This document shows, piece by piece, positions 11,010-17,688 of a DNA stretch of 21,456 nt. Origin of the DNA: a virus; the IMG/VR virus record IMGVR_UViG_3300017824_000067, positions 1 to 21,456 of that record; one strand, 5' to 3'. The position numbers and the translations under genes are program-made. The notes beneath the pieces were generated by a model. That model did no database searches. It was not told the origin of the DNA and worked only from the letters and a program-made list of their open reading frames with translations. Position 1 is the first letter of the stretch, and each line of letters opens with the position of its first letter.

Positions 11010-12050
11010 TTAAAGTAGTCTCGCTTTAGCTTTTAAAACTGAAGACTTAGTGTTATCATTTTTTATAACATCAATTTTAATTAAGTCATTAGTAGATACC
11101 TTTATAGTTGTAACATCATCCCCTATATAATTACCATTTATATAGACGGAATAACTGTCAACATTAGTTGACTCTAATATTGTTAAATCAACTTGATATC
11201 TATAAGTTTCACTTAATGATGTTATTCCACTTGTAAATAAAATATCTAAATCAAAGTTTTTAGGGTTAGACGGATATTTTTCCGCTCTCTTACTTTTATT
11301 AAATGTTTCAACTTCAAAAACGGTTGAGGTTCTTGATATTGCTGGTGACACTTCAAACTCTTCCTCATCTAATAAAAATCCCATCATTAAAAATTCATAA
11401 TTTTGAACATAGTATTTTCTTTTCTCCAATTCTAATACGGATTCATCAGAAGAAGAGTTTAGAATTAAAGGAATATAATGTCCTTTAATTTCAGTATAAG
11501 CCTGTCTTGAAGAAAAAGTTTGTAATACCTTTTTATTAAAATCATTTAATTGTCTCATCTTATTACAAAAGATTTTAACGTTATAAGTAATATCTACAGG
11601 AACAGGTTGAGGTATTTTGTAAATGTCCATACCCTTTCTTTGTCCGTCCCAAGTAGGTACTTTGGCATAATAAAATTGTTTTCTATTTGGTATTGTATAC
11701 TGTAATGATGGATTAGTTCCAAACTTTACATCAGGGTTTCTTACTGTCGCAACAAAAGGGGGTTTTATATTTTTATCTAAATCTTGAAAATTCCAAGTCT
11801 CAGTAAATTGAGCCCAATTCTGTGTTGTAATAATTAAATCGACTGTGTTAATTTTTTTACCACTAACTGAAATACCTAAATCTTCTTTTACAAAATCTAA
11901 CATACCTCTATCTAAATCTGCATGTAATATAGATTTAGGTAAATATGTTCCGTCCTCTTGAATTTGTTCAAGAAGTTCTTCTCTCCTTTGTAGTAAAATT
12001 TTATCAGGAGTTAAGGGTAAATGTTTTTTTACGTTCTTAGGTAGTGCCAT
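11010..12050 (-). CDS. T4 gp15-like tail completion / sheath-stabiliser candidate
   Basis: 346 residues. T4 gp15 caps the tail and joins it to the neck. The central part, PVPVDITYNVKIFCNKMRQL followed by NDFNKKVLQTFSS and GHYIPLIL, parallels the gp15 layout of a beta strand, a long helix and a second strand. A further strand/loop segment, YYVQNYEFLMMGFLLDEEEF, then EVSPAISR, corresponds to gp15's closing strand region. The last 70 residues (SYSVYINGNYIGDDVTTIKV...) look like an extra beta-sandwich domain absent from the smaller T4 protein. Its place after the gp14-like and zinc-ribbon genes and before the sheath matches T4 order 14-15-18-19. The start overlaps the upstream stop (TAATG). The assignment rests on layout and synteny. 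Confidence 0.5.
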   Translation of the reverse strand: MALPKNVKKHLPLTPDKILLQRREELLEQIQEDGTYLPKSILHADLDRGMLDFVKEDLGISVSGKKINTVDLIITTQNWAQFTETWNFQDLDKNIKPPFVATVRNPDVKFGTNPSLQYTIPNRKQFYYAKVPTWDGQRKGMDIYKIPQPVPVDITYNVKIFCNKMRQLNDFNKKVLQTFSSRQAYTEIKGHYIPLILNSSSDESVLELEKRKYYVQNYEFLMMGFLLDEEEFEVSPAISRTSTVFEVETFNKSKRAEKYPSNPKNFDLDILFTSGITSLSETYRYQVDLTILESTNVDSYSVYINGNYIGDDVTTIKVSTNDLIKIDVIKNDNTKSSVLKAKARLL

Positions 12051-12610
12051 TATTTTTTTGTTTCACTAATAAAAAAGACTTTATCTTTTGAGTTAATCAT
12101 CTCAACTTCATTTGCATTAAATATAGGTTCTTCACTATCTTTTCTTACAAATGAATCATATTTGTAAGGATTGTAAGTTATAATTTTATCGTTTGGTGGT
12201 TCAGGTAAATTTTCACAAGGGTAAGTACAATAATCTAAAAGAGTACCAATGACAAATGCGTGAACATTTTTTCTCATTTCATCTCTAACTCTTTCTTTAC
12301 CACCTTGTCTTACTCTAAATTCAACATCACTCAACTTAACGTAATCGGCATATATAACAATCTTATTCTTATAAGAAACTGAAAAAGTGTGTTTGTGTAA
12401 GTTATAGTAAACCATAACTTTTTTACCTATATAATTAATTTCTTCATTATCATTACCACATTCATGACATACGTAAGGGTCATCACCACCTTTACTTAGT
12501 TCCCATGACCACCCACAATCATCACAAACGACTTTTTCTCCAACGACCTCCTCACATAAATGAGACATCCTATTTTTAATAAAATTTATTTCGTTAATTA
12601 ATTTTTTCAT
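12050..12610 (-). CDS. Zinc-ribbon protein with conserved phage C-terminal domain
   Basis: 186 residues in two parts. The N-terminus (about 25-55) is a zinc ribbon with two CxxC knuckles, VVCDDCGW and YVCHECGN (C29, C32, C48, C51), around a GGDDP turn. The rest starts IGKKVMVYYNLHKHTFSV and contains RVRQGGKERVRDEMRKNVHAF, which I recognise as the style of a conserved phage protein of unknown function. The ATG overlaps the stop of the gp14-like reading frame when that is read past its TAG (ATGA), and its TAA overlaps the gp15-like ATG, so it sits inside a translationally coupled neck operon. A nucleic-acid-binding or structural zinc role is possible. Confidence 0.65.
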   Translation of the reverse strand: MKKLINEINFIKNRMSHLCEEVVGEKVVCDDCGWSWELSKGGDDPYVCHECGNDNEEINYIGKKVMVYYNLHKHTFSVSYKNKIVIYADYVKLSDVEFRVRQGGKERVRDEMRKNVHAFVIGTLLDYCTYPCENLPEPPNDKIITYNPYKYDSFVRKDSEEPIFNANEVEMINSKDKVFFISETKK

Positions 12611-13135: not shown

Positions 13136-13168
13136 CTTAGTTTATTGTTATATTATAAATATTTCGTT

Positions 13169-14932
13169 ATGGAAAGTAAGAAAGATAAGTTATCAAAAAT
13201 ACCCGAAGTTAGAGCGCAACGTATTTTAGAAGAATACGATGGGTTTAACAATTATATTATATCCATACAAAAAAAATTAAAAGAACAAAAACACTTTAAA
13301 CTAACAAGGGCACAGGCGGACTATATTAACACTTATCACGGTAGGGTACCTAAGATAGCAAGAAAATGGGTTGATTTAGATAGTTATTTTGGTAAAAAAA
13401 TGATGGAAGATAAACTTCTCACAAAAGTCCCTGAAAAAATATACATAGAAAAACTTTTAGTCGAGAAAGATAAATCTTTCCATATATGGGGTAGAATTTT
13501 TGAAAGTGAAAAACTTCACTCGTTTTGGTTACCTCGTGTAGCGCTTATAAAATCTCAAGAAGTTAAAGAGGTTAAAATTGACTATTCTAAATATAAACAT
13601 AGACCTCCTCTACAACATCAAACAGAAGCCATAGAAAAGTTAGCTTCTCACAATAAATATATTTTAGCAGATGATATGGGTCTTGGTAAAACGACTTCAA
13701 CGGTAATTGCAGCTTTAGAGTCAGGGGCAGAGAGAGTCCTGATTGTATGTCCAGCTTCTTTAAAAATAAATTGGAAACGAGAAATTGAAAATTACACAGA
13801 TAAAACCATATCAATTATTGAAGGTAAGAAATGGGAAAGTGCAGATTTTGTTATTATTAATTATGATATTTTAAAAAACTTCCACGATTTAAAAAACAAA
13901 GAAGAGTCCATTATTCTACAAGAAGGGTTTGATTTAGTAGTTGTAGATGAGGCTCATTACATACAAAATGTACAAGCTAAACGAACTAAATTAATTAACG
14001 ACATTATAAATTCAATAGGTAAAGTATGGTTACTTACGGGTACACCCATGACCTCAAGACCAATAAATTATTATAATCTTTTAAATTTAGTGGAATCTCC
14101 TGTTGCATATAATTGGATGGCATATGTTATCAGATATTGTGAAGGGTACCAATTTAATGTGGGTAATAGAAAAGTTTGGAACGTAAATGGTTCATCTAAC
14201 CTTTTGGAGTTAAGGGATAGAACTAAAACACATGTATTAAGGAGATTAAAACAAGACATACTAGACCTACCTGAAAAAATTATTACTCCCGTATACCTTA
14301 ATTTAAAGTCTAAAGACTACGAGGCACTTATGGGTGAATACTATGATTGGATGGAAGATGACCGAGAAAAAAAATCGTTAACTGTCCAATTCTCAATGTT
14401 GATGAAAGTTAGACAAGTTATTGCAGAAAACAAAATAAAAGAAACTTGTGAAATCGTTGAAAATATAATCGAACAAGGTAAAAAGGTTATTGTGTTTACT
14501 AACTTTACAGATACGTTAAATAGAATTGTAGACCACTTTGGTAAAAAAGCTGTAAAATTGGACGGGAAAATGACTAAAACTGCGAGACAATATTCGGTTG
14601 ACCAATTTCAAGAAAACGATAAAATAAAAGTTTTTGTTGGTAATTTAAAAGCGGCAGGTGTAGGTATAACACTTACTAAAGCAGAAGCTGTTGTTATGAA
14701 TGATTTATCCTTTGTACCTTCTGACCATTCACAAGCAGAAGATAGAGCATATAGATACGGACAGAAATCAAACGTATCAGTATTCTACCCTATTTTTGAA
14801 AACTCAATAGAGGGAATTATATATGATATTTTGTCACAAAAAAAGAATATTTTTGAGACAGTAATGGGGGATAATGAAGGTAAGGGAGACATTATGGAAC
14901 AAATTATAAACGAAATATCGGTCAGAAGATAA
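13169..14932 (+). CDS. SNF2-family DNA helicase/translocase
   Basis: 587 residues from the ATG at 13169. A TTG eight codons upstream would also be in frame, but those codons coincide with the TATAAATA element, so ATG is preferred. Superfamily 2 motifs are all present: Q-type PPLQHQTEAI, motif I DDMGLGKT (168-175), Ia VLIVCPASLK, II DEAH (260-263), III LTGTP (289-293), IV VIVFTNF, V GNLKAAGVGITLT and VI QAEDRAYRYGQ (522-532). The last is typical of SNF2 proteins and distinguishes it from UvsW. It is expected to be an ATP-driven dsDNA translocase acting in replication-fork repair or recombination, in the role UvsW fills in T4. The 150-residue N-terminal part (LTRAQADYINTYHGRVPKIA) is not a known catalytic region. 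It is followed after 39 nt by the SOD fusion gene. Confidence 0.88.
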   Translation: MESKKDKLSKIPEVRAQRILEEYDGFNNYIISIQKKLKEQKHFKLTRAQADYINTYHGRVPKIARKWVDLDSYFGKKMMEDKLLTKVPEKIYIEKLLVEKDKSFHIWGRIFESEKLHSFWLPRVALIKSQEVKEVKIDYSKYKHRPPLQHQTEAIEKLASHNKYILADDMGLGKTTSTVIAALESGAERVLIVCPASLKINWKREIENYTDKTISIIEGKKWESADFVIINYDILKNFHDLKNKEESIILQEGFDLVVVDEAHYIQNVQAKRTKLINDIINSIGKVWLLTGTPMTSRPINYYNLLNLVESPVAYNWMAYVIRYCEGYQFNVGNRKVWNVNGSSNLLELRDRTKTHVLRRLKQDILDLPEKIITPVYLNLKSKDYEALMGEYYDWMEDDREKKSLTVQFSMLMKVRQVIAENKIKETCEIVENIIEQGKKVIVFTNFTDTLNRIVDHFGKKAVKLDGKMTKTARQYSVDQFQENDKIKVFVGNLKAAGVGITLTKAEAVVMNDLSFVPSDHSQAEDRAYRYGQKSNVSVFYPIFENSIEGIIYDILSQKKNIFETVMGDNEGKGDIMEQIINEISVRR

Positions 14933-14950: not shown

Positions 14951-14958
14951 TATTTATA
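14951..14958 (+). promoter_or_regulatory. TATTTATA element ahead of the SOD fusion gene
   Basis: Plus-strand TATTTATAATA starting at 14951, with the element ending 13 nt before the ATG at 14972, in the 39-nt gap after the helicase. It could let the SOD fusion and the downstream neck gene be expressed independently of the helicase. Confidence 0.35.
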
Positions 14959-14971
14959 ATAAAAAAGACAA

Positions 14972-16534
14972 ATGAAGTTCAAAAGATTAAAAAACAAAAT
15001 CTCAGAGATTGAACATAAATTAAAAAGCCGAGAACATTTAACAGAAGTTAAATCTACTGTCTCGCAAAAATCACCACAAATTTTAACAGAAATGAAAAAA
15101 ATAGGTATTGAAAAATTACCATACTCTTATTCTGCCTTAGAGAGATTTATAGACTCTGAAACTATGGATACTCACTATAATAAACATTATAAAGGGTATG
15201 TAAAAAAATTAAATAACGCACTATCAAATAGAATAGACGGTAATATTGAATTAGAACAATTAATAAAAGGAATATCCAGATACAATAAAACAATTAGAGA
15301 TAATGCTGGTGGGGTATTTAATCACTCATTATTTTGGAAAATGTTGTCCCCAAAAAAACAAAGAGCACAAGGAGAGGTTTATGAAAAAATTATTAAAGAT
15401 TTTGGAGACTTTTCTAAATTTAAAAGAATATTTAGTAATGAATCATTAAAAAACTTTGGTTCAGGATGGACATGGTTAGTAGTTACTAAATCAGGTAAAT
15501 TAAAAGTGATGTCCACACCTAATCAAGACAACCCTCTAATGAATGTAGTTAAAAATGGAGGATATCCAATTTTAGGGATAGACACTTGGGAACACGCATA
15601 TTATTTAAAATATCGCAATAAGAGAGATGAATATATTAGAAATTTTTGGTCAGTTATTAATTGGGATTATGTGAATGAACTTTATAATAGTCAAGTTAAT
15701 AAAAAAATTAATGAAACTAATCAAGTTAAAAGTATAATCTCTGAAGGTTCAAGTCCGGGATGTAATAGAAATCAAGTACAAACATATAGAAGGTTGTTTA
15801 ATACCAATCCAGAAATAAAAAAGAGATTTATGTACACTATAATGGATATCCTTAAAGAAGTATTTTCAGATTATTGGTATGAAAAAAATAAATATTCTAA
15901 AGGACAAATGTCCGGCGTTTATGATTATGAACAAAAAGGTCGTTCAGTTATAAATAAATTAAACACAAATTACACAGCATTTTGTACTTTGGTGACGGAT
16001 ACAAATAACTACTTAAAAAAATATGGTATAGATGTTATTAATTTTAATAATAAAAACCATAAGGAACAATTGGTAGAAGTTGATAGACTTAACAAATACC
16101 TTATAGAACTAAGATACAGTATGTTTGACTCTAACTCTGAAACTTTTAAAACTATAATGTCAGGTCTTGATAAGACCAATAAATTTGGAGATAAGAGAGA
16201 GGTGGACGCAGTAGTAAACTTAAAAAATATCTTTAAAACCGATAACGTTAAAAAAGTTGGAGAACTTGGAGATGTAGACGATATGATTGGAGGGATTGAC
16301 GCCACAGTTAAATTAAATGAGGAAACTAAAACAATGCAAATTAAACCATTTAATCGTATAACAAAACAAAATGGTAAAGTAACCGTTTATGGTACAGGTA
16401 ATGTAAAACCTTATAAAACTGACTTTTTAGTTTTTCATAGTAATAAATTAGGAACAGTAGTTTTTGAAAATAAAAATACAAAAATTATTAACGGTAGATA
16501 CGTCTTTACAGAGTCATCTGAATATAATATTTAA
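14972..16534 (+). CDS. Mn/Fe superoxide dismutase fused to a PD-(D/E)XK-like C-terminal domain
   Basis: 520 residues. Residues 47-240 are a full iron/manganese superoxide dismutase, which converts superoxide to peroxide and oxygen: LPYSYSALERFID, MDTHYNKHYKGYV (ligand H68, H72, Y76), FNHSLFW (ligand H118), NFGSGWTWLVV, STPNQDNPL (Q185) and LGIDTWEHAYYLKY (ligands D204, H208). All four metal ligands are present, and Gly114 with Gln185 is the Mn-type pattern. Residues 1-46 are a charged leader ending ILTEMKKIGIEK. Residues 250-520 do not belong to SOD: a helical stretch, then GELGDVDDMIGGIDATV and TMQIKPF (D443...Q456-x-K458), resembling the D...QxK core of Mrr-type PD-(D/E)XK nucleases. The gene lies between helicase and gp13-like neck genes. 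The SOD call is firm, the nuclease call tentative; a catalytically dead or structural role is possible. Confidence 0.85.
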   Translation: MKFKRLKNKISEIEHKLKSREHLTEVKSTVSQKSPQILTEMKKIGIEKLPYSYSALERFIDSETMDTHYNKHYKGYVKKLNNALSNRIDGNIELEQLIKGISRYNKTIRDNAGGVFNHSLFWKMLSPKKQRAQGEVYEKIIKDFGDFSKFKRIFSNESLKNFGSGWTWLVVTKSGKLKVMSTPNQDNPLMNVVKNGGYPILGIDTWEHAYYLKYRNKRDEYIRNFWSVINWDYVNELYNSQVNKKINETNQVKSIISEGSSPGCNRNQVQTYRRLFNTNPEIKKRFMYTIMDILKEVFSDYWYEKNKYSKGQMSGVYDYEQKGRSVINKLNTNYTAFCTLVTDTNNYLKKYGIDVINFNNKNHKEQLVEVDRLNKYLIELRYSMFDSNSETFKTIMSGLDKTNKFGDKREVDAVVNLKNIFKTDNVKKVGELGDVDDMIGGIDATVKLNEETKTMQIKPFNRITKQNGKVTVYGTGNVKPYKTDFLVFHSNKLGTVVFENKNTKIINGRYVFTESSEYNI

Positions 16535-16575: not shown

Positions 16576-17688
16576 ATGTCAATAATCAACGAACCACAAA
16601 GAAGTAAATTATATACTCGTGTAAAACACCTCTTAGGTGCACCTATACGTAGTATTGAAGTCGAAGATGAAATGATGGACTCATTACTTGAGTTATCAAT
16701 TCAAGATTACGCACAATATGTTAACGATTGGCTAATTGAATCTCAATGGACATCACTATATGGGATGAACCTAGATGAACAATCAGTTACAAGAGCATTT
16801 ACTACACGTTCATTAGATTGGGAAACCCAATATACTTATTCATATTCTAAAATTGTGGGTCTACAAGCTGGTGGAGATTATGTACTTAAAAAAGACTATA
16901 TAACATTAGTACCTAACCAACAAATATACGAAATACCCGCAGGAAGAGAATTAAACGAACTTTTATGGTTTACACGAGCAGAATTAGACGCCGCGTTTTT
17001 TGACCCATTTATGGGTGGATTCGGAGGTATGGGAGGTGTAGGTCTTGGTGGTGGTGCCGGTTTCGCACAAATGGGTCAAACAGGTAACTACATGATTACA
17101 CCTGCATTTGATATACTACTAAGAATGCAAGATATAAACGTTAAAAGAAGACTAATTGCCGGTGAATTAACATACAGAGTAACTGCATTACCTGAAGGTA
17201 AAAAGGCACTTCATTTATATAATGTTCCAGGAGGTAAATTTGATTTTGGTAATATTGAATTTAATGAATACAGAGTATGGTATTGGTACTATGAAACTGA
17301 TGACAGAGAAGATTGTTTAGCAAAAAACCCTGACATCGTAAGACTACCATCAGATATACCAATAGATGAAATGAAATGGGATGAATTAAATAATCCCGCA
17401 CAGGCTTGGGTTAGAAAATGGTTTGTTGCGTATGTTAAGGAAACATTAGGTAGAGTTAGGGGTAAATTTAGTGGTAACTTAAAAACACCTGACTCAGAAG
17501 TTACTATGGATTACGATTCGTTATTAACTGAAGCCAAAGACGAAAAAAGTAAATTAATGGAAGAGTTAATGGCTAGATTAGAAAGACTAAGACCAGACAA
17601 GATGATGGAAAGAGAAGCTAATTTAGCTGAAAACTTAAACAAATCATTACAATATAGAGCACTGCCTCGACAGATGTATATAATATAA
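16576..17688 (+). CDS. T4 gp13-like neck protein candidate
   Basis: 370 residues (T4 gp13 has 309). The N-terminus YTRVKHLLGAPIRSIEVEDE followed by a helix with SIQDYAQYVNDWLIESQW is the layout I associate with gp13-type neck/connector proteins, which form the ring that closes the portal after packaging and receives the tail. A Gly-rich loop fills residues 147-170 (MGGFGGMGGVGLGGG), probably a flexible insertion. The C-terminal part is helical, with WVRKWFVAYVKETLGRVRGK and a heptad-like stretch up to residue 350. It follows the SOD fusion by 41 nt on the plus strand, while the gp14- and gp15-like genes lie 3.5 kb away on the opposite strand, so the T4 13-14-15 cluster has been split. Assignment from pattern; moderate confidence. 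Confidence 0.55.
   Translation: MSIINEPQRSKLYTRVKHLLGAPIRSIEVEDEMMDSLLELSIQDYAQYVNDWLIESQWTSLYGMNLDEQSVTRAFTTRSLDWETQYTYSYSKIVGLQAGGDYVLKKDYITLVPNQQIYEIPAGRELNELLWFTRAELDAAFFDPFMGGFGGMGGVGLGGGAGFAQMGQTGNYMITPAFDILLRMQDINVKRRLIAGELTYRVTALPEGKKALHLYNVPGGKFDFGNIEFNEYRVWYWYYETDDREDCLAKNPDIVRLPSDIPIDEMKWDELNNPAQAWVRKWFVAYVKETLGRVRGKFSGNLKTPDSEVTMDYDSLLTEAKDEKSKLMEELMARLERLRPDKMMEREANLAENLNKSLQYRALPRQMYII

Follow-up and report, generated by a model that had tools for sequence, protein, structure and literature searches.

What does a T4-like phage do with a superoxide dismutase (SOD) that is joined in one reading frame to a second folded domain? The window (the whole stretch of DNA analysed, a single contig of 21,456 bases) carries an open frame of 520 amino acids at 14972-16534 (+). 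The frame begins with ATG and encodes, in order, a leader, a complete Mn/Fe SOD, a linker, and a C-terminal domain of about 260 residues. A sequence-only reading of the same DNA had described one uninterrupted 520-residue frame located between a helicase and a neck gene, and our analysis agrees on both counts. Immediately upstream is a gene for a SNF2-type helicase (13145-14932), and downstream is a gene matching phrog_211, a 'head-tail adaptor' (16576-17688). Genes for the tail sheath, tail tube, and a DNA polymerase are also near the SOD gene in the window. To judge from the sequences collected here, the T4-like viruses that encode an SOD joined to a nuclease-like domain form a large family and infect aquatic bacteria.

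A fusion gene at a conserved phage locus

Scans of viral contigs, with the complete protein, its C-terminal half, or an alignment of the SOD domain as query, supplied the related loci; the SOD-domain scan contributed the best 80 of 561 related stretches. The resulting set comprises at least 111 usable loci and at least 85 unique proteins. Because the SOD fusion recurs in most of the approximately 85 unique related proteins, it is neither a chance product nor an assembly join. Homologous fusions, which the sequence-only reading had proposed to look for, were thus found in dozens of unique proteins, and a frameshift or assembly join between the two domains in related genomes, which by that reading would have removed the fusion, did not occur. 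All 18 of the diverse relatives inspected keep the gene order as far as their loci extend, with the sheath, tail, and helicase genes followed by SOD, neck, a small gene, and polymerase. Homologues sit at this helicase-SOD-neck position in the phage loci examined, both marine and freshwater.

An assembly join or chance frame, for which the sole argument is that the window is a metagenomic contig, has a negligible chance of being correct and is already refuted by the related loci, since homologues from many samples share the same gene order and dN/dS is about 0.1 or less in both domains. The individual dN/dS values, which are approximate given partly saturated synonymous sites and a short leader, are 0.07-0.11 for the SOD, 0.04-0.09 for the C-terminal domain, and 0.5-1.6 for the leader. 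The SOD and the C-terminal domain are under strong purifying selection.

The same fusion has already been deposited as UniProt entry A0A6J5L953 (501 amino acids, uncultured Caudovirales phage), which is 44% identical over 504 alignment columns. Its name, 'superoxide dismutase', covers the SOD alone; the second domain and the sites described below are absent from the name. Among annotated phage records, no match covers the fusion. The matches are either free-standing phage SODs or bacterial-type SODs, the latter being short, unannotated, or bacterial-named entries.

The leader, the linkers, and predicted cleavage sites

The leader (residues 1-40; 14972..15091, +) is predicted to form a helix at residues 2-18 and to be disordered thereafter. 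Values of pLDDT fall below 50 at residues 17-41, and this segment and a second linker at residues 246-261 are both predicted to be disordered. Three L/I-x-E tripeptides on these segments, all on the plus strand, are predicted prohead-protease sites. Site A (L38-T39-E40, followed by M41; 15083..15091) lies before the SOD in an aligned column where E is present in 28 and L or I in 29 of 31 divergent members, with a variable middle residue (H = 2.9 bits). Site B (I246-N247-E248, followed by T249; 15707..15715) is the first site after the SOD, and its column reads [LIV]xE in 29 of 30 divergent members, with E248 invariant within the disordered linker. Site C (I256-S257-E258, followed by G259; 15737..15745) is the second, and [LIV]xE followed by G, S, A, Q, T, or E (mostly G or S) is found in 26 of 30; in all of these site counts the members are related and so are not independent events.

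In phage T4, the gp21 protease cleaves after the E of L/I-X-E, and internal proteins carry short N-terminal capsid-targeting propeptides that gp21 removes (PMC9026906). The SOD protein matches this propeptide pattern: its site A comes after 40 residues, and the site is present in 28 of 31 divergent members.

Since L/I-x-E is short, the flanks are rich in E, and the tripeptide is therefore frequent by chance, the column pattern is the better evidence. The tripeptide occurs 7.7 and 5.0 times per 100 residues in the two flanks versus 0.8 in the SOD and 1.4 in the C-terminal domain, and is thus 6 to 10 times denser in the SOD flanks than in the SOD. Relative to the expectation from composition, these frequencies are 1.8 and 2.9 times in the flanks and 1.0 times in the SOD. 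Shuffled pre-SOD flanks hold L/I-x-E in 20 of 33 cases on average versus 32 of 33 observed.

The residue directly after site A is usually Met, which we counted against the cleavage reading. This Met resembles the former start codon of a free-standing ancestral SOD to which a leader was later fused, in which case cutting would restore it. The joined leader is missing in a few lineages, namely L093 and L094 (frameshift) and L156 (deletion). In L093 and L094, and also in L032-L034, contigs from several samples have a frameshift close to five consecutive C nucleotides; it parts the leader from the SOD, which restarts at MENIGIEK. L156 lacks the leader, its SOD beginning with MKKIGIEK, whereas the near relative L150 has the leader; this is either a natural deletion or an assembly slip.

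Exchangeable modules around a constant SOD

The SOD is the constant part of these proteins, and the module behind it varies between phages, with the PD-(D/E)XK type present in most. The 900-amino-acid proteins L043 and L044 carry two or more modules after the SOD, and the middle portions of the two show a distant relationship, which extends to a PD-(D/E)XK-like relative encoded by G001, a 198,834-bp relative. Other C-terminal sequences, belonging to no known family, are found in L048, L053, and L105, and nothing lies behind the SOD in L109 and L117. Ahead of the SOD, a domain of about 165 amino acids with an HExxH motif is present in at least 15 unique proteins (carriers include L105, L109, L111, L117, L118, L123, L126-L128, L142, and L148). 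This putative zinc peptidase gave only a weak SprT-like match. L/I-x-E is also present between the HExxH domain and the SOD, and at the joins of the further modules in L043 and L044.

Some of these modules occur apart from the SOD. In L119 (3896-5433), a frame of its own, downstream of the SOD, encodes the C-terminal module. G001 encodes a stand-alone relative of the HExxH domain with its own leader-like N-terminus (82913-83584), as well as a second, SOD-less gene related to the C-terminal domain (117906-118982, -) that has a leader-like N-terminus and TATTTATA upstream.

Late-promoter-like motif and prohead protease

A late-promoter-like motif, TATTTATA, is located 21 bp before the SOD start codon (14951..14958, +), and it also precedes neck, sheath, tube, and further virion genes. 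Within G001, TATTTAT[AC] is found within 60 bp of 42 of the 244 starts versus 6.7 in mononucleotide shuffles; among 24 divergent relatives, 16 have it ahead of the SOD gene. The association between leader and promoter motif in G001 is not significant (Fisher p = 0.13). The T4 late promoter TATAAATA is absent from the coding strand before the SOD, where the motif is TATTTATA.

The window is a 21-kb fragment that has neither a protease nor a capsid gene, and so the link to the protease runs through relatives. Peptidase_S77 (the gp21 type) is present in G001, G002, G003, G012, G016, and G018, and the long relatives that bear it include contigs of 322, 199, 162, and 139 kb. No S77 protease was found in the 223-kb relative G017 or in several shorter contigs scanned. 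The T4-type capsid protein of G001, G003, and G012 carries LINE, followed by A, at residues 57-60, near the 65-residue propeptide of T4.

Many genes of G001 (L060-L070) open with similar leader-like N-termini, such as KLTESDLENIIKRVLNEQ, and these genes possibly represent a large set of capsid-targeted proteins. Across the proteins of this genome, N-terminal L/I-x-E (residues 2-14) is enriched 2-fold; the control tripeptide L/I-x-K is enriched almost equally (1.8-fold), and therefore the leader signal in other G001 genes is suggestive only. In the window, a frame at 12050-12610 (-) carries a domain like that of mycobacteriophage L5 gp82 (PF25735) after a leader-like N-terminus and a zinc-ribbon-like segment. 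An incomplete frame of 924 amino acids (3-2774, -) adjoins the tail genes and has a weak OmpA-like match near its C-terminal end.

A candidate capsid-targeted precursor

The L/I-x-E bracket, the leader, the late-promoter-like motif, the swapping of modules, and the single core locus together favor a capsid-targeted precursor over a cytosolic bifunctional enzyme. In our best reading, to which we give an even chance, the precursor is cut during head maturation and delivers an SOD and a nuclease-like effector. The T4-like phage would synthesize it late, and the N-terminal leader would take it into the prohead. There, a gp21-type S77 prohead protease would cut after the Glu of the L/I-x-E sites that flank the SOD, and this cutting would release the Mn/Fe-type SOD in active form, apart from the PD-(D/E)XK nuclease-like module. 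Both products might remain inside the head and accompany the DNA into the next cell, where the injected SOD may blunt superoxide at the start of infection and the nuclease-like module may act on host or rival nucleic acid. Packaging, cleavage, ejection, the two activities in vivo, and their targets are what we infer. No virion proteomics was found for these phages. In favor of this reading, a T4-like Campylobacter phage is reported, in independent work, to plate at 0.30 on a sodB mutant (PMC6024767).

A polyprotein is implied, because such sites lie behind the SOD as well and part several folded domains from one another. We propose more tentatively, and with somewhat less than an even chance, that one clade of T4-like phages loads its capsids with a cleavable polyprotein in which SOD is the fixed cargo and the effectors (PD-(D/E)XK nuclease, HExxH putative peptidase, and others) are exchangeable. 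Through prohead-protease processing, these phages would have built a system against oxidative defence that is injected.

The strongest rival is an uncut, bifunctional cytosolic enzyme for defence against reactive oxygen species (ROS). Its SOD would protect the cell or new virions late in infection, its PD-(D/E)XK domain would process DNA, and the leader and linkers would serve as flexible joints. This arrangement fits with the proposal that phage SODs are ROS-defence genes in freshwater phages (PMC6802176), with the free-standing SODs that jumbo phages carry at other loci, and with the helicase gene adjoining the SOD gene. However, it leaves unexplained why L/I and E are fixed around a free middle residue in fast-evolving disordered flanks, and why L/I-x-E is present at other module joins. 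We therefore consider the cytosolic enzyme unlikely.

The C-terminal PD-(D/E)XK module

The C-terminal module spans residues 259-520 (15746..16531, +), with a predicted PD-(D/E)XK core at about 390-500. Sequence comparisons of this domain with Pfam, PHROG, and the PDB gave no match that stands out, and a PDB sequence search with its profile gave chance matches only. An AF2 model built from an alignment of 40 homologues has a pLDDT of 89.8 and a pTM of 0.83. When this model was compared by Foldseek with PDB structures, the leading matches were nearly all PD-(D/E)XK enzymes, including I-Ssp6803I, archaeal Hjc resolvases, and NhoI, with tRNA-splicing endonucleases ranking lower. The best match has a modest E-value (6.3e-3) and a probability of 1.00. 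The domain is likely to adopt the PD-(D/E)XK fold, and its nuclease activity is a prediction.

The predicted active site consists of the helix glutamate E410 (16199..16201, +), the catalytic aspartate D443 (16298..16300, +), and the catalytic QxK at Q456-I-K458 (16337..16345, +). All four residues (E410, D443, Q456, and K458) are unchanged across 40 divergent C-terminal domains, down to 33% identity. The sequence-only reading had called this region nuclease-like on account of a D443...Q456-x-K458 signature and compared it with Mrr. The fold and the core stand, including a structural match to PD-(D/E)XK enzymes, the absence of which would have removed the nuclease part; membership in the Mrr family does not, given that neither the window protein nor any of the 40 family members scanned matched the Pfam Mrr profile. 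The conserved E410, which that reading did not include, joins the D...QxK core. I-Ssp6803I, the Hjc Holliday junction resolvases, and NhoI share the predicted fold, with an E helix, a D strand, and QxK. The phage module differs from them in having no detectable sequence similarity, an extra helical N-terminal half, and a position behind an SOD.

The C-terminal module might instead be a binding or exclusion factor, such that the virion carries SOD and a non-catalytic partner. The module matches no sequence family, Gln replaces the second acidic residue of the motif, and a nuclease within a filled head would endanger the phage's own DNA. Nevertheless, a non-catalytic role would have to accommodate the invariance of E, D, Q, and K in 40 sequences, and the Q-x-K variant is known from active PD-(D/E)XK enzymes (Mrr-like nucleases). 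We regard this alternative as improbable.

The SOD domain

The Mn/Fe SOD domain occupies residues 41-245 (15092..15706, +). Pfam Sod_Fe_N matches residues 47-126 (E 3.8e-21; 75.8 bits versus a cut-off of 27) and Sod_Fe_C matches residues 133-236 (E 7.2e-39; 132.4 bits versus a cut-off of 20.9). The best solved relative is the superoxide dismutase 6gsc (1.3e-59, residues 48-239). H68, H118, D204, and H208, together with Q185 and Y76, are invariant in a 16-sequence family alignment, so that the complete Mn-type SOD proposed earlier with these four ligands and Q185 is confirmed by Pfam and by alignment, and the assignment as an SOD is well supported. The domain resembles other Mn/Fe SODs (6gsc, 5a9g, and 1d5n) in both Pfam domains, the four ligands, the Mn-type Gln in the C-terminal half, and the full-length alignment of residues 48-239, whereas the leader and second domain are additions of the phage protein.

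Mn/Fe SODs form dimers or tetramers, and some phage proteins reuse enzyme folds. An idea raised earlier, that the SOD has no role as a dismutase and instead gives the nuclease a structural scaffold or a means of dimerisation, would draw on these precedents. It is very improbable because the metal ligands never change: the ligands and second-sphere residues (H68, H72, Y76, H118, Q185, D204, E207, and H208) are all invariant. Furthermore, the SOD is found without the nuclease module in L050, L109, L117, and L121.

In a tree, the family's SOD domains group together, and the branch between them and the sampled bacterial SODs is 0.98 long and has 100/100 support; formal monophyly is nevertheless blurred by the midpoint root and by two phage SODs on long branches. 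A single bacterial SOD donor is not indicated by this tree, with its midpoint root and long branches. A scan of bacterial genomes for an origin of the fusion gave matches to the SOD domain only, at 37-51% identity.

Relation to known systems

Taken singly, phage SODs, giant-virus SODs, PD-(D/E)XK nucleases, and capsid-targeted proteins of T4 are already known. The proposed precursor resembles the T4 internal proteins and Alt in its short N-terminal leader ending with L/I-x-E, its candidate late-type expression signal, the S77 protease (here in the genomes of long relatives), and the variable effector domains behind a common type of leader. It differs in having further sites after the SOD that divide several folded domains, and in that SOD is not among the T4 internal proteins.

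Free-standing Mn/Fe SODs are encoded by phage PA5oct (EST35_0261) and Vibrio phage 2.275.O (NVP2275O_049), but these are only 25-29% identical, are found at other loci, and have neither such a leader nor a nuclease module. The Mn/Fe SODs among the ROS-defence genes of freshwater phages (PMC6802176) likewise have neither and lie at other loci. The Pseudomonas phage PA5oct protein (L215), a distant free-standing SOD named 'hypothetical protein', is noted as detected by ESI-MS/MS. We rejected this note as proof of packaging because metabolic enzymes (RNR and thymidylate synthase) carry the same note. SODs of giant viruses are packaged in virions (PMC9405923). Our search of the open-access literature, a scope that excludes subscription papers and preprints, returned phage ROS-defence genes and giant-virus SODs, and no description of the SOD-nuclease fusion, the bracketing sites, or the modular family.

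Even without packaging, an SOD-nuclease fusion at a core locus of marine and freshwater phages is undescribed in the literature searched. If the SOD is packaged and injected, then superoxide would be a threat to phages as soon as infection begins, and the host's oxidative response would become a testable antiphage barrier. T4-type capsid targeting would then extend from single internal proteins to polyproteins with swappable effectors, and the L/I-x-E leader signature could help predict ejected proteins in the genomes of uncultured phages.
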